Below are positions 1 through 63,015 of a stretch of 64,000 nucleotides of DNA, piece by piece; within the stretch, counting starts at the first letter, position 1, and every line of letters begins with the position of its first letter. Origin of the DNA: Bdellovibrio sp. ZAP7 (GTDB lineage Bacteria; Bdellovibrionota; Bdellovibrionia; Bdellovibrionales; Bdellovibrionaceae); NCBI RefSeq assembly GCF_006874645.1, contig NZ_CP030082.1, forward strand, positions 1,798,001-1,862,000, given 5' to 3'. The notes under the pieces are model-generated. The model saw only the letters and a list, made by a program, of their open reading frames with translations, ran no database searches and was not told the origin of the DNA. A program made the position numbers and the translations under genes.

Positions 1-3000
1 GTGTGGCAAAAGAGGTGGGTACTGAAGGAAAGCTAGGTGGTCAGGCTGACGTAAAAGGTGTGTCGGGGACCTGGAAAGACTTAACCGATAACGTGAATAG
101 CTTGGCCGGAAATTTGACCGATCAAGTACGTAACATCGCGAAAGTAACCACCGCGGTTGCCAAAGGTGACTTGTCCCAAAAAATCACCGTTGATGCCAAG
201 GGCGAAATCTTTGAACTAAAAAATACCATCAACGTCATGGTGGATCAGCTGAACTCGTTCGCAGCCGAGGTAACTCGTGTTGCCAAGGAGGTAGGTACCG
301 AAGGAAAACTGGGTGGTCAGGCCGAAGTAAAAGGTGTTTCCGGTACCTGGAAAGACTTAACGGATAACGTAAATGGTCTTGCCGGAAATCTAACAGCCCA
401 GGTTCGTAATATCGCGAAGGTAACCACTGCGGTGGCGAACGGGGACTTGTCACAAAAAATTACCGTCGATGCCCGAGGAGAAATCCTGGAGGTAAAAAAC
501 ACTATCAACTCGATGGTGGATCAGCTGAATTCATTTGCAGCCGAGGTAACCCGTGTGGCGAAAGAGGTAGGTACCGAAGGAAAACTGGGTGGTCAGGCTG
601 AAGTACGTGGAGTATCTGGTACTTGGAAAGACTTAACTGATAATGTAAATTTCATGGCGTCGAATTTGACGAAACAAGTACGTGGTATCGTGAAGGTCGT
701 AACGGCCGTAGCCAACGGCGACTTGAATCAAAAATTCGTCCTGGAAGCAAAAGGGGAAGTTGCGGCCCTTGCGGAAACAATCAACTCGATGACCGATACC
801 CTTAGAACCTTTGCCGATCAGGTAACGACAGTTGCCCGCGAAGTGGGTATCGAAGGAAAGCTGGGAGCGCAAGCCCGCGTGCCCGGTGTTGCCGGAACTT
901 GGAAAGACTTAACCGACAACGTAAACTTCATGGCCTCCAATTTGACGACGCAAGTACGTGGTATCGTCAAAGTCGTAACCGCGGTTGCCAATGGGGACTT
1001 GGAACAAAAATTCGTTCTTGAAGCCAAAGGGGAAGTTGCGGCCCTTGCCGAAACAATTAACTCGATGACTGATACCTTAAGAACATTCGCTGATCAGGTA
1101 ACGACCGTGGCCCGTGAGGTGGGTATCGAAGGTAAGCTGGGTGGTCAGGCAAGCGTTCCGGGTGCTTCTGGTACTTGGAAAGACTTAACGGATAACGTGA
1201 ATCAGCTGGCCGGAAACTTAACAGCCCAGGTTCGTGCTATTGCGGAAGTATCCACAGCCGTAACCAAGGGAGACCTCACTCGTTCCATCTCGGTTGAGGC
1301 TGAGGGCGAGGTTGCAGCTCTGTCTGAAAATATCAATCAGATGATCTCAAATCTGAAAGACACGACTCAGAAAAATAACGAGCAGGACTGGTTGAAAACC
1401 AATCTCGCGAAGTTCTCAGGGATGATGCAAGGTCAAAGAAGTATCACGTCGGTCGCGCAATTGATCATGTCGGAGCTGACTCCGCTGGTTGACGCCCGCC
1501 AAGGAACGTTCTTTATGCTTGATAGCGAAAGTAACGAGCCGACTTTGAATCTGATCGCAAGTTATGCATTCACAGAACGCCGTACCGTTTCAAATAAATA
1601 TAAACTTAAAGAAGGCCTGATTGGTCAGTGTGCCTTTGAGAAAAAACGCATTCTTCTGACGAACCCGCCAGATGATTATGTCGTGATCAGCTCTAGCATC
1701 GTGGAAGAAAAACCAAGAAACATTATTGTACTTCCGGTTCTTTTTGAGGGCGAGTTGAAAGCTGTAATTGAATTGGCGTCATTGCAGCCGTTTACTCAGA
1801 ACTATATCAACTTCCTGGATCAATTGATGGACTCCATGGGAGTTATCTTGAACATGATCTCGTCAAGTATGAGAACGGAAGAACTTTTGCAAGAGCTGAA
1901 ACGTTCCAACGTGGAGCTAGAAGCCCAAGCAAAAGAACTCGAAGACAAAGCAAAACTTCTGGAAGTCAAAAACCAAGAGGTCGAGCTTGCCAGCCGTTCC
2001 CTGGAAGAAAAAGCCGAACAGCTTTCTCTTATCTCTAAGTATAAATCAGAGTTCCTGGCGAACATGTCTCACGAGCTCAGAACACCGCTTAATAGCTTGT
2101 TGATCTTGTCTAAAACGTTGGCCGACAACCGCGAGAAAAATCTCAACGGGGAGCAGGTGAAGTTTGCAAGCACCGTACATTCTGCCGGTCAGGACTTATT
2201 GGCATTGATTAATGAGATTCTGGATCTTTCGAAAGTGGAAGCTGGTAAAATGCCAGTCACACCTAAGATCGTGGAAATCGCCGAAGTAAAAGAATACTTG
2301 GAGCAAACATTCCGTCCTGTGGCTGAGCACAAAGGATTGGAGTTTGTGATTACGGCGACACCAAATTTGCCAAAGACAATGGTCACTGATGAAAACCGTT
2401 TGCATCAGATCTTGAAAAATCTTTTGTCGAACGCCTTTAAGTTTACCGACAAGGGGCATGTGACTTTGGATGTGAAGCACGAATCTGGAAACATTGTTTA
2501 CCGTGTGACGGATACGGGAATTGGTATCCCGGCTGACAAACAGAAGCTGATCTTTGAAGCTTTTCAGCAGGCTGATGGAACAACCAGTCGTAAATACGGT
2601 GGTACTGGTTTAGGTCTAACGATCAGTCGTGAAATCGCGCGCCTTTTGGGTGGTGTGATCAGTGTTGAAAGTACTCCAGGGCAGGGGAGCAGTTTCACTT
2701 TGACTTTGCCGGTGAAGTATTCAGCGCCAGAGGGTGCTATGGTGAATATAGCCGATGAACAATCTGAAGTGACACCACTTCCGAATGATGCTGATTTTAC
2801 CGGCAAAAAAGTTTTGATCGTCGATGACGATGTTCGCAATGTTTTTGCACTGAGCAGCGTTTTGAAAATGCGCGGCATGAATGTGATCTTCGCTGAAAAC
2901 GGCAAGCAGGGTATTAAGACGCTTATGGAAAATCCAGATACCGATTTGGTGTTGATGGATACTATGATGCCGGAAATGGACGGATTGGAAGCGATTCAAG

Positions 3001-3188
3001 AAATTCGTTCTTTGGAACAATTCATGAGTTTGCCAATCATCTCGTTAACTGCGAAAGCCATGAAAGGTGATCGCGAGAAGTGTCTTTCTGCGGGGGCATC
3101 AGATTACGTCACTAAACCAGTGGATGAAATTCACTTGTTAGCTGTTATGTACTCGTGGTTGCCGCAAAAGAGTGTTTCGCTAAATTAG
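1..3188 (+). CDS. Poly-HAMP hybrid histidine kinase, 5' end outside window
   Basis: Partial gene: the frame is open at the left edge, so the N terminus lies outside. The visible part has five tandem HAMP-type units of exactly 92 residues (units begin at bases 3, 279, 555, 831 and 1107, each with an EGKLG core and a [11 protein letters not shown]-like stretch). Then come a GAF-like domain (visible residues about 473-616), a coiled coil, a HisKA domain with phospho-acceptor His690 in SHELRTPLN, a HATPase domain (N box near 806, DTGIGIP near 838) and a C-terminal receiver with Asp986 in [11 protein letters not shown]. Families of this type autophosphorylate on His and pass phosphate to the receiver. 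The repeat type is that of group III (Nik1/Os1-like) kinases known from fungi and some bacteria. The next kinase follows after 6 bases, so the two are probably co-transcribed. The signal is unknown. Confidence 0.93.
3..1370 (+). repeat. Five in-frame tandem repeats of 276 bases encoding HAMP units
   Basis: Near-identical DNA blocks recur with an exact 276-base period (starts 3, 279, 555, 831, 1107). Units 1-3 resemble each other most and units 3-5 share a second subtype ([16 protein letters not shown]), so the array looks built from at least two ancestral units. The period equals 92 codons with no frame change, which fits a selected protein repeat. The array may have more units upstream of the window. 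Confidence 0.9.
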
Positions 3189-24263: not shown

Positions 24264-26765
24264 CTATAAACCCTTTCCGCGGCTCACTTCTTTGATCAAG
24301 AAGCGATTAGTTTGTTTTTTACATTTAACCAAAGAATCTTTTGCAGATACAATTCCGCAATCTGGATCCACTGTTGTCCATTTGAAGGGGTCCGATGTTC
24401 TTAAGCTTACAGGATTACAAATCCAGTGCTGGTACCTGTCGTTGACACCGATATTCGATTGCCACAATGGAGCAAGGGTGTTGGAGCAACCTAGGTAGTT
24501 GCCAGCTTTATCCTGGCCTAAGATCTTTGCATTGATAAGTTCTTGAACCGCTTGAGGTTGATAGATGCTGCTCCAACGAATGCCCGCAGTGTAGGCGGTC
24601 GGATGGATATTAAGTTGATTGGTGATGACTGTGCCGATGATACGTAGTGGTTGGGTACGCTGATTGATCGTCAGTTTTTCACAGACAAAGAAGCCGGTGA
24701 TAAAAGTTTGATCTTGTGTGATCACGCAGTTAGCCACCAATGAATCGGTACGGAATCTACCACCGGAAAGATTTACGGTTCCCTCGTTGTAGCCCGGATC
24801 ATTATTGTTAGCATAGGCAGGATTAAACTTCCAGGCGTGACGAGCTTGATCAGCGAAAGATGTATTCCATTTTGCAGCTGGGAACGCAGAATAGTCGGCG
24901 CCAGCATTGCCGGGATCTGGTGAGGCAAAACAACGGTCATCGAACTCCGCCAGATTCGTAGCGATTTCTGAAGGGCGGTGAAGTTTGTCATAATCAGCTT
25001 CATTTGGCATCGGATATTGAGGATCGTCTTGCCCCGTCATACCAGAAAAGTTAACCCATCTTGCCGGCGTCATGCCGTTGGGAAGTGCCCCGGTCAGTAC
25101 CATGGCACTTCCGGACTTTGTAAATGTCACGCCGTTTGTTTTTCTATAAAATTCACTCGTCGTGTTTTGGCGTAAGTTTTCCCCATCCAAGTAACCATAA
25201 TCGTAGGCTTCAAAAAGAAACTTAATACTTGGAGCCGATTTCACGTTGTTGTTAGCGGCACCGTTAGAATACGGTGCAAGATTCGGTTCGCCGTTAAAGG
25301 TAAATTTAAGATCCACTTGGTTGAACTGCTGACGTCCGGCGACGACCAAGGGAGTAGATTGAATGACGATTGAAGCGCCACCCATGCCGGAAGGATAAAG
25401 CGTAACTTGTCCTTCGCGGTGAACGTAAAATTCAGTATAGTAAATTCCGCGGTTTCCGGTTGGGCCTTGAAGGCCGTTATAGTAAACCTTTGCTTTCATG
25501 ATCGGGGTGCCCTGCGCGACAGTTACGGCGGCGTTCGCAAGAACTCCGGGTACATTCGTTTTTGAACTATATCCGTCCACTTGACCTTGTTCGATGAAGT
25601 TGTCGACGTTTCCTAAGTTAAATTGAACTACTGCTTTGTTCGATTCACTTAATGTCGGTCGCACCCACAATTGTGACGTTGTCGTTTGACTCAAATCATA
25701 AGATGCCATGATACGCTTACGGCACATTTTCTGAACGTCGAATACGCTTTCGCTGGCCTTGATGATATTGAACAGGTAATCAAGTCCTGTGTCGCGAGTC
25801 GCATCCAGTTCGAAACCACCTAACATGCCTGAAAAATTCGGCATGCTATAGTTGTACATATAGCCATCGCCGCCGGCCGTTTTCACGATGTAGGGAGCAT
25901 TGTCCATCTTGATGGTACCACCACCAAGAACAACTTTGTCTACAAAGATAACGTTGTTCATTGCTGGAGTTGTGTTGCTTGGAGGAAGACTTAAATCTCC
26001 ATTAATAAAAACCGGACTTTCAAAGCGCAGACCACCATTGGTATTTTGTACGCCAATATTATCCAGGCGGATATTTCCCGTCCCTGCATCGTTAGTTCCA
26101 GAACCCAAATTCAAGTTGTTTGAAACAATCAAAGCGAAATAGGTGAGCTCCCGTGGATAAACGATATTTCTGGAAGTTAAAGTTTGATTTAACTCAGGGT
26201 TGGTTTTGTGCTTCAAGAACACAGTGATTCGTAATGGTACCTCGCGACCACGAACGGCGGAGATGGCTGTGGAATCGCGGTCGATCGTGATGTTGGCAGA
26301 TTCAAATTCGTCAATAATAGGCGTCACCACGGAATAAAGCGGATGGCTGTTCGTCAAAGTGCTGAAATTAATATTACCCGTGATATTCATCAGGCGAGTG
26401 CTTGCCAATGGTTCGGGATGTGGAGTCTCAGAGTTTTTAATGAATAAAAGAGTTTCATCAGAAAGAAGAAGACGTTGAGTATAGCCTGCGTTTGTAAGAC
26501 CACAGTTCATATCCTGCGACCAGTTGGGCGATAAGCACCAGCTCTGTTTAATCGCATTGACCGTATAAGAATAAACCCCATCCAAAACCACCCGGTGGTC
26601 AGTCTTAGTCGCGGCCTTGTTTAATACTTTTGCCTGAGTTTCGATATAGGCAATGGAGGCAAAGAACATAATGCAAATCACCACCCCACCAATCAATGTG
26701 GTGAGGAGCACGGAGCCCTGTTGCGAGCGCAACAATCGCTTATGAAACGCACTTTGCTGGTTCAA
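24264..26765 (-). CDS. Large GspK/PilX-like prepilin protein, set A
   Basis: 833 residues from TTG 26765, chosen because AAAGGGG lies 6 bases upstream and because only then is the leader short. The frame stays open to 26891, but that leader would be 60 residues. The leader ends in RSQQG, then SVLLTTLIGGVVICIMFFASIAYI: a prepilin-like helix with Gly at -1 but Thr, not Glu, at +5, as in GspK/PilX minor subunits. The large body shares with the set B and C proteins YPREL..FAL, a [18 protein letters not shown] region, a WSSIYQPQ segment and a terminal DPFKWTTVDPDCG. It lacks their coiled-coil and Pro/Ser/Thr insertion. Proposed role: tip subunit of a pilus-like fibre. Confidence 0.78.
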   Translation of the reverse strand: MNQQSAFHKRLLRSQQGSVLLTTLIGGVVICIMFFASIAYIETQAKVLNKAATKTDHRVVLDGVYSYTVNAIKQSWCLSPNWSQDMNCGLTNAGYTQRLLLSDETLLFIKNSETPHPEPLASTRLMNITGNINFSTLTNSHPLYSVVTPIIDEFESANITIDRDSTAISAVRGREVPLRITVFLKHKTNPELNQTLTSRNIVYPRELTYFALIVSNNLNLGSGTNDAGTGNIRLDNIGVQNTNGGLRFESPVFINGDLSLPPSNTTPAMNNVIFVDKVVLGGGTIKMDNAPYIVKTAGGDGYMYNYSMPNFSGMLGGFELDATRDTGLDYLFNIIKASESVFDVQKMCRKRIMASYDLSQTTTSQLWVRPTLSESNKAVVQFNLGNVDNFIEQGQVDGYSSKTNVPGVLANAAVTVAQGTPIMKAKVYYNGLQGPTGNRGIYYTEFYVHREGQVTLYPSGMGGASIVIQSTPLVVAGRQQFNQVDLKFTFNGEPNLAPYSNGAANNNVKSAPSIKFLFEAYDYGYLDGENLRQNTTSEFYRKTNGVTFTKSGSAMVLTGALPNGMTPARWVNFSGMTGQDDPQYPMPNEADYDKLHRPSEIATNLAEFDDRCFASPDPGNAGADYSAFPAAKWNTSFADQARHAWKFNPAYANNNDPGYNEGTVNLSGGRFRTDSLVANCVITQDQTFITGFFVCEKLTINQRTQPLRIIGTVITNQLNIHPTAYTAGIRWSSIYQPQAVQELINAKILGQDKAGNYLGCSNTLAPLWQSNIGVNDRYQHWICNPVSLRTSDPFKWTTVDPDCGIVSAKDSLVKCKKQTNRFLIKEVSRGKGL

Positions 26766-26991
26766 ACAATCCCCTTTGTTCCATATTAATATCGGCAGAA
26801 ATGTTCCCTTATGTGAGGAACGGCTGACAAAAAAATCCGACCGTTTTGTCTGGGATTGAGACATAATATTTTTAGGCGTGCTATATGCCATCTGAGGATT
26901 GCGAATAAGTATTCATATTCCGGTCTTGAGGTCGGTTCCTCGATTGAGCTTCCTTGGTAGTCTAAAGAGACCATACAAAAGGGAGGTCCCT
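26766..26991. other. Divergent intergenic region, 226 bases
   Basis: Separates prepilin set A (minus) from a small basic protein gene (plus). Apart from the GCCGATAT element for set A and the GGGAGG ribosome site of the small gene, I see no further gene or strong signal. A minus-strand frame stays open through 26891 but reads as an unlikely leader of the large protein. Confidence 0.5.
26789..26796 (-). promoter_or_regulatory. Sigma-28-like -10 element before set A
   Basis: GCCGATAT on the minus strand, 7 of 8 bases matching the FliA -10 consensus GCCGATAA. It lies 24 bases before TTG 26765, the same distance as CCGATAA elements before sets B and C. No good -35 is seen at the standard spacing, though CATAAGG lies a little further upstream. 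Confidence 0.4.
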
Positions 26992-50918: not shown

Positions 50919-51013
50919 GCTGAAACATTGTTCTCATTATATTCGGAACCTTCTATAAGGATCTGAAAAATCACGACAACTCGCGGATGTTCGTGGTGTC
51001 TTGTTTGTTTTGT

Positions 51014-51021
51014 TCCGATAA
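51014..51021 (+). promoter_or_regulatory. Sigma-28-like -10 element before set B
   Basis: TCCGATAA, 7 of 8 bases of the FliA -10 consensus, 23 bases before ATG 51044. A GTTTG sits upstream, but a -35 at standard spacing is poor. The support is the matching position of similar octamers before sets A and C. Confidence 0.45.
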
Positions 51022-51043
51022 GGAGCGATCAAACGAGGCTTCT

Positions 51044-54000
51044 ATGTCGGTGAAAAACAAGTCAGGGAACGCTATATTGCAGGTGCTTGCCGCGATCGTG
51101 GTTATGGGCATCAGTTTCTATTTCTTGTCGGCCTACGTAATCGCTCAACGAAAACAAATCGTAAAAACTAAAAATGTGGTGACGTTGAAATTCGCAGTGA
51201 ATAGTGCGATGGACTACGTCGTATTCGGTGTTCGTCAAAAGTATTGCTTCGACAACGGAACGATTTTGCAAAACATCGATGCTTGTAATTGGAAGCACGC
51301 AGGGAATGTTGAACGCCTGGTTATGTCAGATGAGCAACTTCAATCTTTAAGAGAGATGGTCGCAGCCGGTGCCAATATCGGACCGCATGATGCCGATATG
51401 AGTAAGCTGCGCCTGGATAAGATTGACCTGATGTTAAACTTTCCGGTCTCTCCAGCACATCCCTTGTTTCCGATCGTGGATGCTTTAAAAACAGTTGTGA
51501 ATGAAACAAACGGTCAAGTGATCAAGGTTAAAGGAATTCACATCGTACTTAATCGTCCTGAAAACAGTGGCTATTTACCCAAGGCAGGACGCGAAGTTTA
51601 CATAATGGCCGAAGCTTCGTTATTAGATGATGGCAACGAAGTGATCCAAGTGGGACGCGTACCTTTAAGTGTTCGATCACAGATTGCGATTTATCCCCGG
51701 GAAATGGGTTCCTTCGCTTTGGTGCTGCCTAAGGATCTTCATATGGATCAGTCGTGGAATGCATCTACGACAAACGGCGACGTGATTCTTCACAAGTTTA
51801 ATGACCGAGCCTCACTCGGTACAAGCACGGGGCTTGTCTTTAATAGTCCGGTGTTTGTGAACGGTAACATCTATTTACCGAATGACACCGGAGATGCAGG
51901 GACTTCGAACTATGCTGCGGTTACATTTGCAGACCGAGTTTATATGGGGAATGGGTGGATATTAAAGTCCGACGGAAATCCCTATGCTCCTGCGACCCTG
52001 GGTGGCTTGCCAGACCGGTATTGGTCGGACTCTCGCGTGTTTGGTGGTTTTTTAAATGGAATTGAAAATGACGGAAGTTCTGATGCCGGATTGGAAGTGA
52101 TGTCTGGGCAAGTGAGTAATTTGCCCGCCGGCGATTTTGACTGGAATCGTATTTGTGCCGATTATAATAAAAAGACAGTCGACATTGGCACCATGAAAGT
52201 TTCTAAGATCAAAGCAAAAATGGTTGATGATTCAACTGACGGTTCCACGCAAAAATCCAAATATAAAATTACTTTGAGTAACTATAATCAGTACTATCCG
52301 CAAAAAAATCCGATTCCAGCTCCGAATGTTGAAAAGTGGAAGCCGGGGACAGCCTCTGTCACGAATATTAATAAGTATGGTGATGCAACGACCACGGGGG
52401 CAGTAACTTCCATCATTCTGGCCTACGGGATTGGATCAGACTATCGCGAAGTGATATTTGATATGACGAAATACGGGACAGCTGTTTTGCAGCCGCAGGT
52501 TGTAAATGAAGATCGTCGTAAAAATTTGGAAGCGGCTCTTAAAGAAGCTAACGATACGATCAATAAGTCCTCTGACAAAACGAATGCTCTGCAATCTGAT
52601 TTAAATAAATCGAATACTGATTTAGCCGCTGCAAATACAGATTTAGCAAAAAAGAAAGATGAATTGAATGCAGAATTGGCAAAACCAGTTTACGCAAGCC
52701 CTTCTCCGAGTCCGACCGTAAGTCCAAGCCCCACGGCAAGTCCGAGTGCCAGCCCAACTGTGAGTCCTTCTCCGACGGCTTCACCATCTGTATCTCCGAC
52801 CGTATCTCCTTCGGTAACTCCGACAGCGTCGGCCAGTGTGACTCCTTCACCATCAGCGACAACAAGTCCTTCTCCAAGTCCTTCTCCAACTCCAACTCCG
52901 ACAGCAACCGTGGGAGATCCATCCCTGTATCAAAATCCTGATACGATAGCTAAGCTGAACCAGGAGATCGATGCTTTAAACAAAAAGATCAATGATCTGC
53001 AGGCGCATATTGCTGATTTAAAAAATGTTCAGATTCCAGCGAATGATAAAAACAATTCGGAAGCAAAGGCCACTGTGTCTTCAGCTACAGCGGCCCTGGC
53101 CGATTATCAGCAAATGATCGACAATCCTCCGAAATTTACGATTGAGATGGATGCGATGAAAACGGGAAGTGGTCGTGAATATCTGGACCGCGCCTATTTA
53201 TCTGTGAACCTAACAAATGCAGCTAACTTACGCGACACTGATGGAAATAAGATCACCGTTTTTTCGGTCCGTTTTAAAGCCTATGATGGAACTTATTGGA
53301 ATAGTATACCGGTTGCGCCCGATGCAAACAGCCCCACGCATTTGCTTGGTTATCTCAATTATTCTATTGATAGTGCTGGTAATATCACAAGACCTTCGGG
53401 GCTTTCTGCCACAGCTAACACCTCTGGCACAGAAGAAGATGAGTCCGGTAATTCAACCGACATTGCGCAAGCCTGTGAAGATTTTTACGACAACATGAAC
53501 TCTCAATCCTTCGGAGCCGCAAACTGGGGAACAAGCTTTGCCGGAGGTACACGTTCTTCATGGAATTTTGCGGGTGTTGATAGTTCCGTTCCTAAAGAAA
53601 AGGGACACGAAAGTGAACCGATCTTGGAAGAAAGAATATTTAATTCAGACAGTACTGAATTCTTAGTGAATTCCATCGTTGGAAATTGTGTCATTAAAGC
53701 CGGTACAAACTTTGTCACGGGTTTTTATACTTGTGACAATTTGACTATCGAGGGTGGACGTACGAAGCCTCTGACAATCATTGGGACTTTTATCATTGGT
53801 AAGACTTTGAAAATCAATGAACAGGCCATTCGTATCGGAATTCAGTGGAGTAGCATTTATCATCCGCAATCTACGCGTATCTTGCGTTCACGAAAAATTT
53901 TGAAACCCATGACTGAGCCAGATAACGTCGCGAAGTGTGATAATTTACCATCTCCCATTTGGCATCCCATTCCTTCCATTCAAGAAACTGCAGATCGCAT

Positions 54001-54169
54001 GGCTTGTAACGTGATCAGTCTGCGTGCGAAGGCGGATCCTTTCAAGTGGACGGCGGTGGATCCTGATTGTGGAGTGGATCCGGCAAAACAACAGACAGTT
54101 CCAACATGCAAACGTCGTATTATTCGTTATTTCGTGGTTGAGCAATCCAGAGAAGGGTTGGGAATGTAA
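51044..54169 (+). CDS. Large GspK/PilX-like prepilin protein, set B
   Basis: 1041 residues from ATG 51044 with GAGG 5 bases before it. A short leader ends in KNKSG, then [24 protein letters not shown], with Gly -1 but Gln at +5 instead of Glu. The body (to about 487) matches sets A and C. A predicted helix (about 488-549), a Pro/Ser/Thr/Ala-rich run (about 552-623) and a second helix (about 629-694) follow, then a conserved C-terminal region ([47 protein letters not shown]). Proposed: tip subunit of a pilus-like complex, exposed outside and possibly adhesive. It overlaps the next gene by one base. Confidence 0.8.
52697..52913 (+). repeat. Pro/Ser/Thr/Ala-rich coding micro-repeat, set B
   Basis: Short degenerate DNA repeats of the type TCTCCGAGTCCG or ACTCCGACAGC encode about 72 residues of almost only Pro, Ser, Thr, Ala and Val (for example [13 protein letters not shown]). 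It is flanked by two helical segments and is absent from set A. Such repeats can change length by slippage. Confidence 0.85.
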
Positions 54170-54618
54170 TGAAAAAACTTAATTCTCGGGGACAAACAAT
54201 AGTTGAATCTCTGGTGGCGTTGGGATTGATTTCCTTTATCGGTCTTATCTTTTTTGGTGGTTTGGTGCAGCTTCGTAAAACGACGTCTGATAGTTTGCTG
54301 GATTCCGCTACGGATAGGCAGATTGCTGATATCGCTGAAAACATCAAGGCGGGCGTACAAAAGTACCAGGTGAATTTCAATCTTGATAAAGCAGCGCTAG
54401 AAACTTTATTAAAGCCGGAAAATCTTCCCATGGTGTGGGATGTCGGTGTGGTGGCTGAAAAAGGTCAGTGTGATCGATGTCAGGGAACCTATGGGTATGT
54501 CATTCAGCCTTTCGACAAGTATCGGGGTCTTTACATGGTGACCCTTCGTCTTTCACATAAAAGCTGGCTCCCGCATGAGACCTATCGTGACTACAACTTT
54601 ATAGTGAGTGCGAAGTGA
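54169..54618 (+). CDS. GspI/PilV-like prepilin, set B
   Basis: 149 residues. The leader MKKLNSRG precedes QTIVESLVALGLISFIGLIFFGGL, giving Gly -1 and Glu +5. The short globular part has a CDRCQGTYGYV motif, probably a disulfide, and ends NFIVSAK. The start overlaps the large protein's stop by one base, so the subunits are made together. It is close to the set C counterpart (60251-60709) over its whole length. Confidence 0.87.
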   Translation: MKKLNSRGQTIVESLVALGLISFIGLIFFGGLVQLRKTTSDSLLDSATDRQIADIAENIKAGVQKYQVNFNLDKAALETLLKPENLPMVWDVGVVAEKGQCDRCQGTYGYVIQPFDKYRGLYMVTLRLSHKSWLPHETYRDYNFIVSAK

Positions 54619-55616
54619 TGTTTAGAAATCAAAAAGGCTTAACTTTAGTGGAAATGATGCTCGGGATCGGTTTATTCGCGATCGTGATTTCTATTATTGT
54701 TTCAGTTCAGGTGAAAATGTCTCAACAACAGGTCGAGATGATTAGAAAACTGGATGATTCCGTTGATCAGCATTTGGCTGAAAGGATCCTATTCAAAGAT
54801 TTAAGTGGCATCGATATTTCCTACAATAATCTTATCGTTAAAGACGACCATGGAAATAACTTTTATGATTTTTATCCCGATATCACAGAGAACATTTTAA
54901 AAGTTCGGGCCGATCGCGAATTGAATTTAAAGCTAGGTGGGAAGGATTCATTTTTCGTTTTCTCTCAAAATTCAGCGGCAGGCCCACTTTTAACCTATGA
55001 CCCTATGTGGGCCTATGATGTCGGTCCAGAACCCGCAGATCCAAATACTCCAGCAACACTGGAATTCAATGGTGAAAAAAATAGGAAATGGATTTCAAAT
55101 GAAAGTAATGGCGGTCGTCCTGGCTTTTGGAAAGTCGGGCACCTTTTGTTTTATGATACTCCCAGCCGTATTCGTCCCAGTGTTGGGGATGTCATTGATA
55201 AAACGATTCCACCACGAAGTTCATTTTATTTGGGCGCTGTTATTTCTGGAAGCGATCTTTTACAAAATGTTTCAGGTGAGGCTGCAGGGCTTTTTAATAT
55301 GACTGAACCAGACAGCGGGGATGCGATCCCGAGCCTTGACGGTTTTTTAAGAAATGTACCTTCTGTGGGGGGCGGTCAGACGGTGGTGCGTGTGCGTGCT
55401 GCTAGACTTGTAAAGTATTACATCGAACCTGATACGAAAAAAAATGCAGATCTTTATAAGCTTGCTCCAGCGAATTTTTTTATGGCGGAGTATCGCGATG
55501 GTCAGTTTGAAAAGCCCACATTGCTTGCTGACGGTGTGGGGCGAGTTTTGTTTCGTCGTGATTCAGTGGTCAAAAAAATGATTTACTTCAAAATTGAAAA
55601 AGCAGAGTTGAAATAG
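54615..55616 (+). CDS. GspJ/PilW-like prepilin, set B
   Basis: 333 residues from GTG 54615; ATG 54618 is an equal alternative. The leader ends RNQKG, then LTLVEMMLGIGLFAIVISIIVS, with Glu +5. The globular domain includes GNNFYDFYPDITENIL, RKWISNESNGGRPGFWK, LLFYDTPSRIRPS, PSVGGGQTVVRVR and VLFRRDSV near the end. It matches the set C protein closely and set A more weakly. It overlaps the preceding gene by four bases. Expected to be cleaved by a prepilin peptidase and assembled with its two partners. Confidence 0.87.
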   Translation: MMFRNQKGLTLVEMMLGIGLFAIVISIIVSVQVKMSQQQVEMIRKLDDSVDQHLAERILFKDLSGIDISYNNLIVKDDHGNNFYDFYPDITENILKVRADRELNLKLGGKDSFFVFSQNSAAGPLLTYDPMWAYDVGPEPADPNTPATLEFNGEKNRKWISNESNGGRPGFWKVGHLLFYDTPSRIRPSVGDVIDKTIPPRSSFYLGAVISGSDLLQNVSGEAAGLFNMTEPDSGDAIPSLDGFLRNVPSVGGGQTVVRVRAARLVKYYIEPDTKKNADLYKLAPANFFMAEYRDGQFEKPTLLADGVGRVLFRRDSVVKKMIYFKIEKAELK

Positions 55617-55662
55617 AATGAATTTGGATAGTTCAGGACGTTTTTTGCGCAAGGGGAGCGTT

Positions 55663-56934
55663 ATGAAAAAAAGTATTTGCTTGATAGCTATCGTCGCGTG
55701 GTATTCCGCAGTTGCTCACGCTGATCAAGCGTCCGTGGTGACGGTCGGTAAAGACGTACCTATGGCGGTCAACTCTGTTTCCACTGGTGAATCCCTATCG
55801 GGTGCTCCAGCCTCTGGAACAGTGACTCGTTCGGGAAAAAGCACCATGACAGTTCGCTTGATCAACTCCTGCTTTGCAACGAATTTGCGGGCGGTTTCAA
55901 ATCCGTTGGCGAAAAGCTCGCTGATTAATGCTGATATCGATATCATGGTGGGTGGTACCAAGTACCATCTGTTTGCAGAATATCCCGCTGCCCTCGTGGG
56001 TGCTGGCGGAAGTGGTGTTCCAGCTTCTGGGACCGTGTCGAACTTTAATGCTTCTAAAGCCAGTGTCGATCCTGTCGGGGGGACCGTTTCGGCGTTTGGT
56101 AATATTGTCGAATTCAGAACGAAAATACCTACGGCGGTTACCGTTGATAATGAAGCTAATATCACGATTTCGAAAGATTCAGTTTCTTTAGGAAAGATGT
56201 CTTTCCTGCAAACGGTTCAAGACTGCAATGCGGGACCTGTGTTTGGTGATTATGGTTGGTCATCTAAAATGCCGACTTATAAATGTGGTGCATTCATGGG
56301 GAAAGACGGGGATATAACCGCAACATTTGGTGGTTTTAACGTTGCTCCCGACCGTTCCTTGGTTGAACTTTTCATCAGCTTTCCGGGCGAGACGGGTTTT
56401 TGTGGAGGGTTCTGGTCACCGTTGATGGTATTCTTTGATGATAAACTTCCTAAGTTTAATACTCTTTCTGATTTCCCTTTAAACCCAGGGGGAAAAGTCT
56501 ATTGGCCAGATGCAAAGAGCCCTGGATTTTTTCTGGCGATGGATCGCGATCGCAACGGAAAGATCGATCAAAAGGATGAACTTTTTGGTGATAACAATTC
56601 GGCTATTAATGGCTTTGAGTCTTTGAAGAAACTCGATAGCAATCATGATGGTTTCATTGATGCTAAAGACAAAGACTTTGCAAAATTAGTCTTATGGAAT
56701 GACGAAAATGCAGATGGTATCAGTCAACCTCGGGAACTGACAAAAGCAGGATTGAAACTTACTAGAATTTCTTTGAAATACCGTGTGAGTGCAGAAAGTT
56801 TAGGAAACGCGGAAATTCGCGAGCGTGCAAAGTTCTGGTACACCGATTCGAAAGGAAAGGTGCGCGCGGGTAATATTTATGACATTTGGCTTGCACCTCA
56901 TATTCCGAGCCGTCTTGCAGAAACGAAATTATGA
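55663..56934 (+). CDS. Secreted EF-hand-like calcium-loop protein, set B
   Basis: 423 residues from ATG 55663, which has AAGGGGAG upstream and gives the same length as the set C protein; a frame open from 55618 adds a leader. The signal peptide ends near AVAHA. Shared N-terminal text with set C is VPMAVNSVSTGES, GAPASGTVTRSG, then CFATNLRAVSNPLAKSSL. Three calcium loops start near residues 294, 325 and 347 (DRDRNGKIDQKDELFGD, DSNHDGFIDAKD, DENADGISQPREL). It should act outside the cytoplasm, probably with the pilin-like subunits encoded just before it. Confidence 0.83.
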   Translation: MKKSICLIAIVAWYSAVAHADQASVVTVGKDVPMAVNSVSTGESLSGAPASGTVTRSGKSTMTVRLINSCFATNLRAVSNPLAKSSLINADIDIMVGGTKYHLFAEYPAALVGAGGSGVPASGTVSNFNASKASVDPVGGTVSAFGNIVEFRTKIPTAVTVDNEANITISKDSVSLGKMSFLQTVQDCNAGPVFGDYGWSSKMPTYKCGAFMGKDGDITATFGGFNVAPDRSLVELFISFPGETGFCGGFWSPLMVFFDDKLPKFNTLSDFPLNPGGKVYWPDAKSPGFFLAMDRDRNGKIDQKDELFGDNNSAINGFESLKKLDSNHDGFIDAKDKDFAKLVLWNDENADGISQPRELTKAGLKLTRISLKYRVSAESLGNAEIRERAKFWYTDSKGKVRAGNIYDIWLAPHIPSRLAETKL

Positions 56935-57140: not shown

Positions 57141-60100
57141 ATGTTTATGAAAACGAGTAAACAAAAAGGTAACGCAATTCTGCAGGTGCTTACCGCTATC
57201 GCGGTCATGAGCATTAGTTTTTATTTCCTGTCTGCGTACGTTATCTCTCAACGAAGACAAGTAGTTAAAACTAAAAACGTAGTAAACCTAAAATTCGCAG
57301 TAAATAGCGCGATGGACTACGTGGTGTTTGGTATCCGTCAAAAGTATTGCTTTGATAATGGATCACTTTTGCAAAACACCACCAGCTGCGACTGGAACAA
57401 CCCAGGTAACGTCGAACGTTTGGTGATGTCAGATGAACAGTTGGCATCCCTTAAGGGAATGGTGGCTGCTGGCGCGAATATTGGTCCCCATGATTCCAAT
57501 TTGGATAAATTACGCCTTGATGCCATTGATATGACATTGAACTTTCCGGTGTCCTCAGCCCATCCCTTATTTCCGGTCGTGAACAATTTGAAACGTGTCG
57601 TGGATGAGCAAACGGGTAAAGAAATTCCCGTTCAAGGTATTCGTATGTATTTGAGTCGTCCAGCTAACTCCGGTTATTTGCCGAAAGCGGGACGTGAAGT
57701 TTACATCTCGGCACAGATTTCATTGATCGATAAAAACAAAACGGTCATCCAAATCGGAAGTGCACCTCTTGAAGTGCGTGCGCAAATCGCTATCTATCCA
57801 CGCGAGCTAGGTTCCTTTGCGCTGGTTCTTCCCGGTGACCTTCGCATGGACCGTACGTGGGATTCCGTTCCGCCGAAAAATGGCGACGTTATTTTCCATA
57901 AATTTGCAAACAAAGCAACCATGGGCACAAGCCCCGGCATGATTTTTAAAAGCCCCGTTTTCGTAAACGGTAACATCAACTTACCTGTGGATAGCGGCAA
58001 TGCTTCTAACTCGAACTACGCTGGCGTAACCTTTGCGGATCGCGTGTACATGGGGAATGGTTGGATTTTAAAACCCGACAACTCTCCGTATAATCCACCA
58101 ACTCAGGGTGCACTTCCTGACCGTTATTGGTCTGATTCCCGCGTGTTTGGCGGTTTCCTAAGAGGTATCGAAAACGATGGTATGCGTGACTTGGGTCTTG
58201 ACGTTATGTCAGGAACTGCCAGTGGCTCATCTGGTACTGAATTTGACCTTAATAAGATTTGTGCGGAACTTAATCAAAAAAGTACACAACTTGAATCCAT
58301 GGAGGCGTCTAATATTAAGGCCACTCCTGGAACGAATCCAGACGACCCATATCGTGTTGTTCTTACGAATTACAATACGTTCTATCCTCAAAAAAATCAG
58401 TTGCCGTCTCCAACCACGTCAGGAGACTGGAGTACTGGTAAGTGGTCTGTTGATAATAAGAATAAGTTAACGGGTGCTATTATGAACGTTGAATTTTCAT
58501 ACGGTACAGGTGCTGATGCCCGTTCATTTAGTGTCGATCTGGTTAAGGACGGGAATGTTACAATTTACCCTCCTGTTCTAAATCCAGCGAGAAAAGCAGC
58601 AATCGTCGCAAGCTTAAATCAGGCTAACACTGATTATAAGAACGCAAAAAATGCAGACACATCGAATGCAGATAGCTTAACTAAGCTAAAAAATAAGTTA
58701 AATACCGCAGAATCGGAGTTAAGAAATTTAGAAGATCAATTAGATGCAGAGCAAGCGAAGCCAGTGGAGCCAGTGGCAACACCGTCTCCTTCACCGACGG
58801 CTACGGCAACAGTTTCGCCAAGTCCGACGGCAACAGCTACGGCAACGGCATCTCCGACTGCCACGGCTTCACCGACAGCTTCACCGACAGCTTCACCGAC
58901 AGCAACAGCTACGGCATCTGCTTCGCCGACAGCGACAGCGTCGGCTTCTCCAACAGCAACAGCCTCGGCTTCTCCAACAGCCACAGCAACAGCAAGTGCT
59001 ACAGCATCACCAACAGTTTCTCCGACAGTGACACCTCCTCCAGGTGGGTACCAGGATTCAGATAAGATCAAAGACTTAAAGACTCAGATTTCAGTCAAAA
59101 AATCGGAAATTTCTGATTTGAAAAATCAGATCAGTGCTGCTGAAACAAATTCGACGAATTATTCCAAGGCCATGACAGACGCCCAAAATAATATTGCGAA
59201 GTATACGGCACAGCTTGATGCCTATACGGCTTTGGAAAAAAATCCTCCGTCATTCGAAATTGACTTGGACAAAGCTTACAGCTGGACAGGAAAAGAATAT
59301 AAAGATCGTCTGGATGTTTTTATCAGTATCAATAATGGGTTGTACCTAATGAACAGTGCGGGTGTCCGTATTGCTGATTTCTCAATTCGTCTTAAAGGTT
59401 ACGACGGTACTTACTTTAATAGTATTCCGGTCCGTTCAACAGCGGATCCCGCCCATCTGCGTGGTTATTTAAACTACCATATCGGAGCTAGTGGTAATAT
59501 CACTCGTCCTACCGGTCTTTCCTCAACGTCTTCAGCAGGTGTTACGTCCGATGAGACGGCAGATATGGCTGCAAAGTGCGAAGACTACTATAATATGATT
59601 AACTCCCAGTCTTTCGGTGCTGCGAACTGGGGTGTGAGCTTCTCTCCAGGTACAAGAAAATCTTGGAACTTCGCAGGTGATTTGAACGCGACCGCGGCTG
59701 ACCCTGTGGTGCCAACAAGAGTTTGGCAAGTCGATGATCAAGACTTCTATGTTCGCTCGATCGTTAAAGACTGCGTGATTACTCCTAAGGCGAACTTTGT
59801 GGCTGGATTCTATACTTGTGACAACTTGACGATCCAAGGCGGTCGTACGAAACCATTGCGCATCATCGGTACCTTTATCATTGGTAAGACTCTGAAAATC
59901 GATGAACAGGCGATTCGCACGGGTATCGTTTGGAGCAGTATCTACTATCCTCAGGCGACTCAAGAATTGAGAGAGCGTGGAATTTTGCATCCATTATCAG
60001 AGCCTAGCAATATTACGAAATGTGATAATTTGCCGTCACCGATCTGGCATCCGATGCCGTCTATCCAAGAAACAGCGGATCGTATGGCTTGTAACGTGAT

Positions 60101-60254
60101 CAGTTTACGCGCGAAAGCAGATCCATTTAAGTGGACAGCAGTGGATCCGGATTGTGGTATCCCGGTAGGGGCGACACAAACCGTTCCGACTTGTAAACGT
60201 CGTATCTACCACTATTTCGTTGTCGAGCAGTCTAGGGAAGGTTCAGGACTATGA
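57141..60254 (+). CDS. Large GspK/PilX-like prepilin protein, set C
   Basis: 1037 residues from ATG 57141 with AGGAG 8 bases upstream. The leader ends SKQKG, then [24 protein letters not shown], Gln at +5. The N-terminal 480 residues are very close to set B ([63 protein letters not shown]). A helix (about 484-540), a Pro/Thr/Ala/Ser run (about 545-635) and another helix (about 639-698) follow, with little sequence in common with set B in this insert. The C terminus ([35 protein letters not shown]) is again strongly conserved. It overlaps the next start by four bases. Confidence 0.8.
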   Translation: MFMKTSKQKGNAILQVLTAIAVMSISFYFLSAYVISQRRQVVKTKNVVNLKFAVNSAMDYVVFGIRQKYCFDNGSLLQNTTSCDWNNPGNVERLVMSDEQLASLKGMVAAGANIGPHDSNLDKLRLDAIDMTLNFPVSSAHPLFPVVNNLKRVVDEQTGKEIPVQGIRMYLSRPANSGYLPKAGREVYISAQISLIDKNKTVIQIGSAPLEVRAQIAIYPRELGSFALVLPGDLRMDRTWDSVPPKNGDVIFHKFANKATMGTSPGMIFKSPVFVNGNINLPVDSGNASNSNYAGVTFADRVYMGNGWILKPDNSPYNPPTQGALPDRYWSDSRVFGGFLRGIENDGMRDLGLDVMSGTASGSSGTEFDLNKICAELNQKSTQLESMEASNIKATPGTNPDDPYRVVLTNYNTFYPQKNQLPSPTTSGDWSTGKWSVDNKNKLTGAIMNVEFSYGTGADARSFSVDLVKDGNVTIYPPVLNPARKAAIVASLNQANTDYKNAKNADTSNADSLTKLKNKLNTAESELRNLEDQLDAEQAKPVEPVATPSPSPTATATVSPSPTATATATASPTATASPTASPTASPTATATASASPTATASASPTATASASPTATATASATASPTVSPTVTPPPGGYQDSDKIKDLKTQISVKKSEISDLKNQISAAETNSTNYSKAMTDAQNNIAKYTAQLDAYTALEKNPPSFEIDLDKAYSWTGKEYKDRLDVFISINNGLYLMNSAGVRIADFSIRLKGYDGTYFNSIPVRSTADPAHLRGYLNYHIGASGNITRPTGLSSTSSAGVTSDETADMAAKCEDYYNMINSQSFGAANWGVSFSPGTRKSWNFAGDLNATAADPVVPTRVWQVDDQDFYVRSIVKDCVITPKANFVAGFYTCDNLTIQGGRTKPLRIIGTFIIGKTLKIDEQAIRTGIVWSSIYYPQATQELRERGILHPLSEPSNITKCDNLPSPIWHPMPSIQETADRMACNVISLRAKADPFKWTAVDPDCGIPVGATQTVPTCKRRIYHYFVVEQSREGSGL
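58774..59045 (+). repeat. Pro/Thr/Ala/Ser-rich coding micro-repeat, set C
   Basis: About 90 residues of ASPTA/TATAS-type repeats encoded by short units such as TCACCGACAGCT and TCTCCAACAGCAACAGC. Blocks repeat almost exactly (for example around 58870-58905 and 58936-58980), suggesting recent expansion. It is longer than the set B run and different in unit. Confidence 0.87.
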
Positions 60255-60709
60255 TTAAAAAATCACTTCTTCAACAATCAAAAGGTCAATCCATCGTTGA
60301 AGCACTGGTTGCTTTAGGTCTGATCTCGGTGATCGGTCTGGCTTTTACGGGTGGACTGGTGCAGCTACGTAATACTTCAAGATCGAGCTTGCTGGCTTCT
60401 GCGACAGATCGTCAGGTGTCAGATATTTCCGAGAACATCAAAGCCGGAGTTCAAGACTATCAAGTGAACTTTGACTATGATCCTTCCCAAATCGATACCT
60501 ACCTGGCTTTGAACAATCTTCCAATGCAGTGGGATGTGGGCCGAGTTGCAGCCAAAGGGCAGTGCGATACTTGTCAGGGAACTTATGGATATTTGATTCA
60601 GCCGTATGAAAAATATCGTGGTCTTTATTTAGTGACCTTACGTATGACTCATAAAAGCTGGTTGCCTGAGAAATTTAGAGACTACACATTCGTGGTGAGT
60701 GCAAAATGA
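60251..60709 (+). CDS. GspI/PilV-like prepilin, set C
   Basis: 152 residues. The leader ends QQSKG, then QSIVEALVALGLISVIGLAF, Gly -1 and Glu +5. The soluble part shares with set B: ATDRQVSDISENIKAGVQ, MQWDVG, CDTCQGTYGYL and FVVSAK at the end. It overlaps both neighbours by four bases (ATGA-type), so the three pilin-like subunits are strictly coupled. Confidence 0.87.
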   Translation: MIKKSLLQQSKGQSIVEALVALGLISVIGLAFTGGLVQLRNTSRSSLLASATDRQVSDISENIKAGVQDYQVNFDYDPSQIDTYLALNNLPMQWDVGRVAAKGQCDTCQGTYGYLIQPYEKYRGLYLVTLRMTHKSWLPEKFRDYTFVVSAK

Positions 60710-61722
60710 TGATTCGAAATCAAAAGGGTCTATCACTAGCAGAGCTTCTGGTCGGGATAGGATTATCCGCGGTGGTTATTTCTGTTGTCGTTGCAGTGCA
60801 GGTCCAAATCACGAAAGAGCAAACAAAATTGACAAGACAACTGGACGATTCCATCGACCAGAATCTTGCCGAGCGTATTACATTTAAAAATCTAAATGGT
60901 GTGGAAGCTTCTTATAATAACATCGTCGTCAAAGACGATAACGGGAACAACTTTTACGATTATTACCCTGATATCACCGAAAATGTTCTAACTGGTAAAA
61001 CTGACCGTGATTTTACATTAATCTACTCTGGCAAAAGAGCATTTTACGTTGTCACTCAGGATATGGGAGCAGGGCCTCTTTTAACTTACGATCCGGTATG
61101 GGCGTATATCATCGGTACGGATCCTGGGGATCCCAATAAACCAGCGTCTCTTACTTTTAGTCCCGCGAATAACAGAAAATGGATTTCTAACGAAGCCAAT
61201 GGCGGACGCCCCGGGTTTTGGCGAGATGGAAATCTATTGATGTACGATACTCCAAGTCGCATTCGTCCTGCACCAGGGGGCGTGATAGATATGAAGATTC
61301 CACCACGCAGCCCCATCTATGTAGGCTCAGTTTCTACGGCAGCAGGTGATTCGTTGCAGGGATTGAATAATGAAGCAGCAAGCTTATTTAAGAATACACA
61401 ACCGTATAATGGTAAAGTGATTGATAGTTTAGATACGTTTTTACGTACCCTTCCATCTGTGGGTGGGGGACAAACTATCGTCCGTACAAGAGTTATTAAA
61501 ATCGCAAAATACTATGTTGAAATCGATGACAAGAAAAAGGCCAGCGAGTATCGCACGACGCCTTTAAATCTGTATGTCACAGAATACAGAAACGGCGGTT
61601 GGGAAAAACCGACGTTGCTTGCGGACGGGGTGGAAAAAATGATTTTCCGCCGCGATTCAGTCTTAAAAAGAATGATTTATTTTAAAATTTTTAAAGCGGA
61701 AAGATTAGACGGACAAAACTAG
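60706..61722 (+). CDS. GspJ/PilW-like prepilin, set C
   Basis: 338 residues (ATG 60706; ATG 60709 also possible). The leader ends RNQKG, then LSLAELLVGIGLSAVVISVVVA, Glu +5. Shared features with set B: GNNFYDYYPDITENVL, RKWISNEANGGRPGFWRDG, YDTPSRIRPAPGG, PSVGGGQTIVRTR, MIFRRDSVLKRMIYFKI. It lies between the I-like prepilin and the EF-hand gene, 21 bases from the latter. Confidence 0.87.
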   Translation: MMIRNQKGLSLAELLVGIGLSAVVISVVVAVQVQITKEQTKLTRQLDDSIDQNLAERITFKNLNGVEASYNNIVVKDDNGNNFYDYYPDITENVLTGKTDRDFTLIYSGKRAFYVVTQDMGAGPLLTYDPVWAYIIGTDPGDPNKPASLTFSPANNRKWISNEANGGRPGFWRDGNLLMYDTPSRIRPAPGGVIDMKIPPRSPIYVGSVSTAAGDSLQGLNNEAASLFKNTQPYNGKVIDSLDTFLRTLPSVGGGQTIVRTRVIKIAKYYVEIDDKKKASEYRTTPLNLYVTEYRNGGWEKPTLLADGVEKMIFRRDSVLKRMIYFKIFKAERLDGQN

Positions 61723-61743
61723 TATCCGCTTTAGGGGGACGTT

Positions 61744-63015
61744 ATGAAAACAATAGCTATTTTGGGAGGCGCGCTGGTCTTGTTGACTTCCAGTGCTTTT
61801 GCAGACCAAAACAACGTTGTGACAGTCAGTAAAGACGTGCCGATGGCAGTGAACTCGGTGAGTTCCGGGGAATCCGTTGTCGGAGCTCCAGCTTCTGGAA
61901 CAGTCACGCGGTCCGGCCGAGAAACGATGACGGTGCGTCTAGTGAATTCATGTTTCGGTACGAACCTTCGTGCTGTGACAAATCCACTGGCGAAGAGCTC
62001 ACTCATCACCGCAGATATTAATATTCTGGTCGGTGCCACAAACTATAATCTGGGTGTTGAGTATCCAGCCGTTATCGTAACTCCGGAAGGTACCGGGAAT
62101 GTCGGTAACGGTAGCGTGGGCAACATTAAAGCCTCTAAGGTAAGAATGACCCCGGCCGGCGGTACAGCTGCGGTCTACGGGAATATCGTTGAGTTTAAAA
62201 CGAAAATTCCTACGGGCGTGACAGTCGATAACCAAGCAAATATCTCCGTTTCAAAATCAAATGTTTCTTTAGGGAATATGAGTTTTGAGCAAGAGATCTT
62301 GGACTGTAAAACGGGCCCGGTTTTCGGGGATTATGGTTGGTCATCAAAAATGCCAACCTATGGTTGCGGAGACTTCATGGGTAAGGACGGAACCGTTACA
62401 GCCACTATTGGTGGCTTCAACGTTTCTCCAGACCGCTCGACAGTTGAAATCTTCATCAGCTTCCCAGGTGAAACAGGTTTTTGCGGCGGTTATTGGTCAC
62501 CTCTAATGGTGTTCTTTGATGACAACTTGCCAAAGTTTGAAAACGTAAGTTCATTTCCTCTGAATCCAGGCGGAAAAGTGTATTGGCCGAATGCCAATCA
62601 TCCAGGGTTTTTCTTAGCGATCGACCGCGACAAAAACGGCATGATCGATAAGAAAGACGAGCTTTTTGGGGACAACAACACGGCGATCAATGGTTTTGAA
62701 TCCTTGAAGAAATTCGATTCCAATAAAGACGGCGTGATTGATGCCAAGGATAAAGAATTTAAACGCTTGGTGCTTTGGAAAGACATCAACGGTGACGGCG
62801 TTTCCCAAAAAGGTGAACTGACGAAGGCCGCTTTGAAATTGGATAAGATTTCTTTGAACTATGAAAACTACGAGGAAGCTCGCGGTAAAAACGCTGAGAT
62901 TCGCCAGCGTGCGAAGTTCTGGTATACCGATGCCAAAGGTAAAAAGAAAACTGGAAACGTTTACGATATTTGGTTTGCACCGTATATCCAAACGAATCTC
63001 GCTGACACCAAATAG
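61744..63015 (+). CDS. Secreted EF-hand-like calcium-loop protein, set C
   Basis: 423 residues. The signal peptide ends near SSAFA. N-terminal domain as in set B (VPMAVNSVSSGES, CFGTNLRAVTNPLAKSSL, a VFGDYGWSSKMPTY motif, FCGGYWSP). Calcium loops start near 294, 325 and 347 (DRDKNGMIDKKDELFGD, DSNKDGVIDAKD, DINGDGVSQKGEL). A strong GGGGG site precedes the ATG. The stop codon directly abuts that of the convergent thioredoxin-like gene, and the terminator lies within the latter. Confidence 0.85.
   Translation: MKTIAILGGALVLLTSSAFADQNNVVTVSKDVPMAVNSVSSGESVVGAPASGTVTRSGRETMTVRLVNSCFGTNLRAVTNPLAKSSLITADINILVGATNYNLGVEYPAVIVTPEGTGNVGNGSVGNIKASKVRMTPAGGTAAVYGNIVEFKTKIPTGVTVDNQANISVSKSNVSLGNMSFEQEILDCKTGPVFGDYGWSSKMPTYGCGDFMGKDGTVTATIGGFNVSPDRSTVEIFISFPGETGFCGGYWSPLMVFFDDNLPKFENVSSFPLNPGGKVYWPNANHPGFFLAIDRDKNGMIDKKDELFGDNNTAINGFESLKKFDSNKDGVIDAKDKEFKRLVLWKDINGDGVSQKGELTKAALKLDKISLNYENYEEARGKNAEIRQRAKFWYTDAKGKKKTGNVYDIWFAPYIQTNLADTK

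Follow-up and report, generated by a model that had tools for sequence, protein, structure and literature searches.

The locus and its three gene sets

The genome of Bdellovibrio sp. ZAP7 is a single contig of 4.12 Mb, of which the window, the whole stretch of 64,000 nucleotides analysed here, is a part. The four-gene set C occupies 57141-63015, and its large first gene carries the repeat run considered in this report. Set B (50987-56934) lies directly upstream of set C, and a third set, set A, is on the opposite strand. The genes needed for what follows are:

57141..60254 (+): set C large pilin-like protein, 1037 aa (ORF call; 46 aligned family members)
60251..60709 (+): set C small minor-pilin-like protein, 152 aa (N_methyl match below cut-off)
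60706..61722 (+): set C second minor-pilin-like protein, 338 aa (N_methyl match below cut-off in one search, above it in another)
61744..63015 (+): set C secreted-looking protein, 423 aa (weak EF-hand matches)
50987..54169 (+): set B large paralogue, 1060 aa (ORF call)
24264..26891 (-): set A large paralogue, 875 aa, without arm and linker altogether

At the start of the window (1-1202) there is also a 276-bp tandem repeat of 4.4 copies, inside the ORF 3-3188, which may represent serial HAMP domains.

The first three products of set C have pilin-type N-termini, and the fourth looks secreted. As in type IVa minor pilin sets (PilX/V/W-like), the N-terminus of the large protein is of the prepilin type, with a Gly before a long hydrophobic helix (KGNAILQVL...). 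The helix spans residues 9-66 in the structure model, and G10 is invariant in 12 sequences. The Glu at +5 is missing, which also holds for PilX/GspK. The large protein has no Pfam match above cut-off and no N_methyl match, and its NCBIfam matches are all far below cut-off and lie in the coiled-coil parts. N_methyl (PF07963) exceeds the cut-off in the 333-aa protein of set B and the 156-aa protein of set A, and stays below it in the small proteins of sets B and C. No Tad (PF13400) match was obtained in the large protein at E 0.1, nor at the locus; the sole match of the genome over the cut-off is at 3992064-3992204, away from the locus. PilY1 (PF05567) has no match in the large protein or the whole genome, an absence that is weakly controlled, with 0 of 14 control genomes over the cut-off. 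If that absence is real, another protein must serve as the pilus-tip adhesin.

The pilin-type N-terminus and the gene neighbours suggest that the large protein is exposed at the surface. A pilus-tip complex is consistent with the presence of three pilin-like genes in each set and with the size and inserted domains of the large first product. The large protein most likely belongs to a three-pilin tip complex, one per set.

The repeat run lies at the turn of a predicted coiled-coil arm

An AlphaFold2 model of the large set C protein (eight sequences) is of modest quality overall, with a mean pLDDT of 64 and a pTM of 0.45. Two long helices nevertheless flank the repeat run, mostly at pLDDT 74-92, and the run itself (residues 543-635) falls below 50. 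The elements concerned are:

58584..58754 (+): first long helix of the hairpin arm, residues 482-538 (model)
58767..59048 (+): variable S/T/P/A linker, 94 codons, residues 543-636, limits set by the flanking motifs AKPV and YQDS, predicted disordered
59058..59240 (+): second long helix of the hairpin arm, residues 640-700 (model)
52691..52927 (+): set B linker at the matching place, 79 codons, SP/TV-rich (derived coordinates)

Heptad periodicity is strong in both helices, at a level reached in 0 of 5000 shuffles for each. A relative with an 11-residue linker, modelled with similarly modest quality (mean pLDDT 64, pTM 0.42), has the matching helix pair at residues 485-534 and 553-607. The linker sits where a predicted coiled-coil hairpin arm turns back on itself. 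With a length of some 57 residues, the arm would measure about 85 angstrom by standard geometry (1.5 angstrom per residue).

VIA matches with Z about 4-5.5 to Ig-like domains, over residues 389-783 of the set C model, would suggest an arm inserted in an Ig-like domain, but are too weak to claim it. For the arm itself, the VIA matches reach Z 12.8 but represent helical hairpins of a generic kind, against which the program cautions when a model is helical, and we draw no relationship from them. Foldseek gave no match at E 0.001 for the set C model against the PDB, nor for the model of the 11-residue-linker relative against BFVD. A family-profile search of solved structures gave six matches at E at or below 0.1, the best being 8zvk, and all were set aside as coiled-coil or low-complexity.

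A graded family of arms

Some match to the set C protein occurs in 22 of 23 same-genus genomes; G008 has none, and that of G014 is a weak low-complexity match only. An alignment-based search found nine named family loci titled Bdellovibrio or Bdellovibrionaceae, where a single-protein query found none. The family alignment comprises 46 members. No sequence from G031 or G056 is included, nor are the set A-like copies of G010, G011, G021, G022 and G035 or the copies of G013, which lie on draft contigs; the long copy of G010 was kept although it ends at a contig end. The long copy of G013 (L022 / L052) has an in-frame TAG, either an error or a mark of a pseudogene.

The arm is absent in five of the 46 members, the set A protein of ZAP7 included. 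This set A paralogue shares both of its ends with the set C protein and is without the whole coiled-coil arm; therefore, the arm is a removable module. Where present, the arm is nearly constant. Its two helices measure 50-54 and 54-58 residues in 31 of the 41 hairpins, and in seven more both are about one heptad longer (61 and 64-65: G021 and the pairs from ZAP7, G022 and G011); the last three arms measure 26/34, 58/59 and 59/57. The lengths of the two helices correlate at 0.95 over the 41 hairpins, a value on which the one short arm (26/34) weighs heavily. Such joint change in length supports the pairing of the helices.

The turn, on the other hand, varies widely: 0-2 residues in 16 of the 41 hairpins, 9-11 in three and 46-94 in 22, the set C linker being the longest of the family. 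Linker chemistry also differs by lineage (SP/TA, GT/SG, T-rich or partly charged). A second paralogue was compared in 13 congeners, and in each of them a tight turn (0-1 residues) in one copy goes with a linker of 9-80 residues in the other. This graded family of arms is the more interesting result.

Repeats in the set C linker at the DNA level

The first-pass annotation had described a repeat run of near-exact ASPTA and TATAS blocks in set C, differing in unit and length from set B at the matching place, and had read it as recently expanded. The run is there and contains the ASPTA unit seven times and the TATAS unit six times; the 94-codon linker of set C indeed differs from the 79-codon, SP/TV-rich linker of set B in both respects. 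Tandem Repeats Finder (TRF) arrays, together with the two stretches discussed in the next section, are located as follows:

58866..58903 (+): perfect tandem tract, 12-nt unit x 3.2 (ASPT), 38 nt (TRF, 100% match)
58875..58939 (+): 30-nt tandem array x 2.2 (TRF, 77% match)
58903..58988 (+): 24-nt tandem array x 3.6 (TRF, 82% match)
58893..58904 (+): 12-nt stretch without counterpart in G022 (alignment, hand-counted, placement in the array approximate)
58938..58967 (+): 30-nt stretch without counterpart in G022 (alignment, hand-counted, placement approximate)

The 38-nt tract is the longest exact tandem tract of the window; of 469 segments of 272 nt, only the one containing it reaches that length. 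Shuffling synonymous codons within the linker produced a tract of at least 38 nt in 3 of 1000 trials, and drawing codons from the usage of the set C gene did so in 1 of 1000. The tract is therefore not just a by-product of a repetitive protein. The rest of the array behaves differently. Its synonymous codons are mixed throughout, and the summed repeat content of the linker shows no excess over the pooled own-codon null (396 of 1000 shuffles reach the observed value), so that most of the array is not near-exact at the DNA level.

The codon-shuffle test was applied, uncorrected, to twelve linkers, of which the set C linker had been named beforehand. The set B linker of ZAP7 has an excess as well (27 nt, 0 of 1000 under both nulls). 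In the set C linker of G022, the nearest relative of the set C protein (96% amino acid identity), there is none: its longest tract of 14 nt is reached by 450 and 386 of 1000 under the two nulls. For the other nine linkers, tract length always falls short of the 1% level when tested against the own-codon null; against the gene-codon null, only G019 attains it (1 of 1000). The set B linker of G022 is longer than that of ZAP7 and is without a long perfect tract, so a change in length need not leave a mark of recent slippage.

Hence the description as near-exact holds for the perfect tract and fails for most of the array. Likewise, the central tract, which beats both codon nulls and is absent in G022, looks recently duplicated; "recently expanded" fits this short central part of the linker only.

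The strand antisense to the linker has an open frame of 111 aa (window 58736-59071, -), probably a by-product of low-complexity DNA.

Length changes are in frame and confined to the linker

Between the set C proteins of ZAP7 and G022, there are no gaps in 953 aligned codons outside the linker. Inside it there are two in-frame indels, of 12 and 30 nt (14 gap columns), both in or beside TRF arrays; towards its two ends the linker can be matched position by position. The corresponding set B comparison has no gaps in 1008 codons outside the linker and three events (22 gap columns) inside. Although the two sets are neighbours, they differ in divergence: dS outside the linker is 1.04 for the set B pair, roughly double the 0.53 of the set C pair. 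Pooling four close pairs (ZAP7/G022 set C, ZAP7/G022 set B, G018/G001 and G023/G002) gives seven events in 342 linker columns against one in 3837 other columns (binomial p 1.8e-7); four further pairs above 86% identity were left out, since each shares a member with the pooled pairs. The G018/G001 pair, at a dS of 0.49, has no linker change, its single gap event being outside the linker. The compared genomes are one per species, the closest pairs standing at a dS of about 0.5, and indel counts at this distance may miss reversals. In-frame length change confined to the loop, over species-level time, is well supported, and the turnover of the linker proceeds at an ordinary pace.

In the set C pair, dN/dS is 0.11 in the linker and 0.037 elsewhere. 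Since the linker value is well below 1, its composition is under some constraint, and the linker may be more than a passive spacer.

Is this behaviour peculiar to the large pilin? Other proteins of the ZAP7 genome (L005, L006, L007 and L008) have long S/P/T/A linkers of like style. Compared with their counterparts in G022, two of them keep their linker length: L005/L049 and L007/L050 are free of linker gaps, with nucleotide identities of 0.927 and 0.937 in the remainder of the gene. In L006/L060, where that identity is 78%, there are 9 gap columns; L008 was left out, its match in G022 being just 48-69% identical. Because one of the three control linkers also varies in length, the property may belong to S/P/T/A linker DNA generally.

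These results bear out two expectations of the first-pass annotation, namely that slippage-sized changes would spare the reading frame and that the rest of the protein would stay conserved. The further proposal, surface variation of a single subunit, is not supported in that form, given that set B and the relatives carry such linkers and that a control linker varies too. Its strong form, rapid surface variation, is partly contradicted by the slow pace and the codon-degenerate array.

What is the loop for?

Pilus-tip complexes are a leading candidate for the means by which Bdellovibrio recognises its prey. We think it likely that the repeat run encodes a disordered, length-permissive spacer loop on the hairpin arm of a tip-type minor pilin, with in-frame turnover over species-level time. 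The loop would sit at the outer end of a stiff coiled-coil hairpin arm of a large minor pilin of the type IV pilus type. Nothing would fold around it there, so in-frame gains and losses of repeat units, by slippage or unequal recombination, would be tolerated. Across the family the loop would have drifted from 0 to 94 residues and through varied chemistries, kept only disordered and hydrophilic. As a flexible spacer or bristle, it may extend how far the arm can reach. The computation shows where the loop lies, that in-frame indels are confined to it, that the arm is close to constant and that disorder is predicted; the tip location, slippage as the mutational route and the spacer role are inferred.

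A rival proposal, possible if doubtful, is that the loop is a glycan-carrying bristle, O-glycosylated and selected for S/T density and not for sequence. Serine and threonine make up 43 of the 94 residues of the set C linker, and the constraint seen in its dN/dS would agree with such selection. In Neisseria, low-complexity regions are O-glycosylation sites, according to one report (PMC3643930). The ZAP7 genome has two proteins over the cut-off for Wzy_C, of the ligase/polymerase superfamily, but this match cannot separate a protein ligase from polysaccharide enzymes, and PglL_A has no match over the cut-off. Moreover, the linkers of some relatives are G-rich, partly charged or almost non-existent.

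It is tempting to go further and to see in the family pilus-tip arms of three grades (no arm, tight turn and long loop), often two per genome, with the loop as a length-evolving contact bristle, perhaps sugar-coated, that reaches through differing prey envelopes. This is speculative and, in our estimate, rather unlikely; if it were true, loop length would be an evolving determinant of prey attachment.

Linker length could also be adaptive in itself, tuned by prey or by envelope thickness. The prevalence of long linkers among the hairpins and the pairing of tight-turn with long-loop paralogues in the 13 congeners would be expected of selected reach, but G009 has a linker of 9 residues where the 90%-identical G001 has 80, which argues for loose constraint. 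We judge this explanation quite unlikely.

A contingency locus, in which frequent slippage would produce cells with differing loop lengths and thus rapid surface variation, we judge very unlikely. The in-frame units, the recent 38-nt perfect tract and the confinement of length changes to the array speak for it. However, the longest perfect tract has just 3.2 copies, the linker of G022 has no exact-repeat excess, and its outer parts match those of ZAP7 one to one. The 12- and 30-nt differences are in frame and switch neither frame nor promoter. A fast switch is disfavoured because the array is codon-degenerate and because about two events have accumulated per dS of 0.5, with none in the G018/G001 pair; the variation belongs to species-level time. 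This corrects a tempting reading: a gene for a surface protein can be rich in repeats without acting as a switch.

Finally, low-complexity DNA aligns poorly and repeats can collapse in assembly, but an artefact is hardly credible, since ordinary reads exceed the length of the arrays, each of which is below 100 nt, the ZAP7 and G022 genomes are single contigs, and length differences also occur in set B and many other genomes.

The spacer loop on a pilin arm, the reading preferred here, offers a defined, removable and naturally length-graded part (loops of 0 to 94 residues) of a candidate for prey recognition, for which the tight-turn paralogues within the same genomes are built-in controls.

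Comparison with known systems

Simple-sequence contingency loci have tandem repeats inside genes. Set C resembles them in having tandem repeats inside the gene for a probable surface protein, and differs in its short perfect tracts, frame-neutral units and slow pace.

Among the matches listed, no open-licence paper on length variation of a Bdellovibrio pilin was found. In the hit locus of Bdellovibrio, Bd0108, a disordered pilus-linked protein, carries an in-frame deletion of 42 bp (PMC4267844). In that case a small regulator has acquired a lifestyle mutation under selection, whereas set C exhibits length drift in a pilin.

Two large pilin-like proteins come closer. ComZ of Thermus thermophilus (PDB 6qvi) has a big insert in the pilin fold, a beta-solenoid in pilins of the ComZ type, and its tip location was proposed on structure; the passages considered here mention no coiled-coil arm or low-complexity loop (PMC6561018). 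VIA aligns the set C model with ComZ at Z 7.8 and an rmsd of 6.6 over 268 residues (model 46-1000), in the zone of common arrangements, and ComZ is not among the 50 matches listed for the model of the 11-residue-linker relative.

The Kil (Tad) tip complexes of Myxococcus, KilLMN, are described in PMC12075869 as encoded by three pilin-like genes, with several paralogous sets in one predator, and a Bdellovibrio tip is predicted there by structure. In the large component, KilN, a pair of long helices and a beta scaffold form part of the distal domain. The likeness to the sets described here thus concerns both the three-gene organisation and the several paralogous sets per predator; in addition, the set C model has two long helices and many strands, a resemblance to KilN that is one of description only. 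KilLMN are TadE/F/G-like, whereas the set C locus is without a Tad (PF13400) match. On these comparisons, ComZ and KilN appear to be the nearest precedents for the large set C protein.
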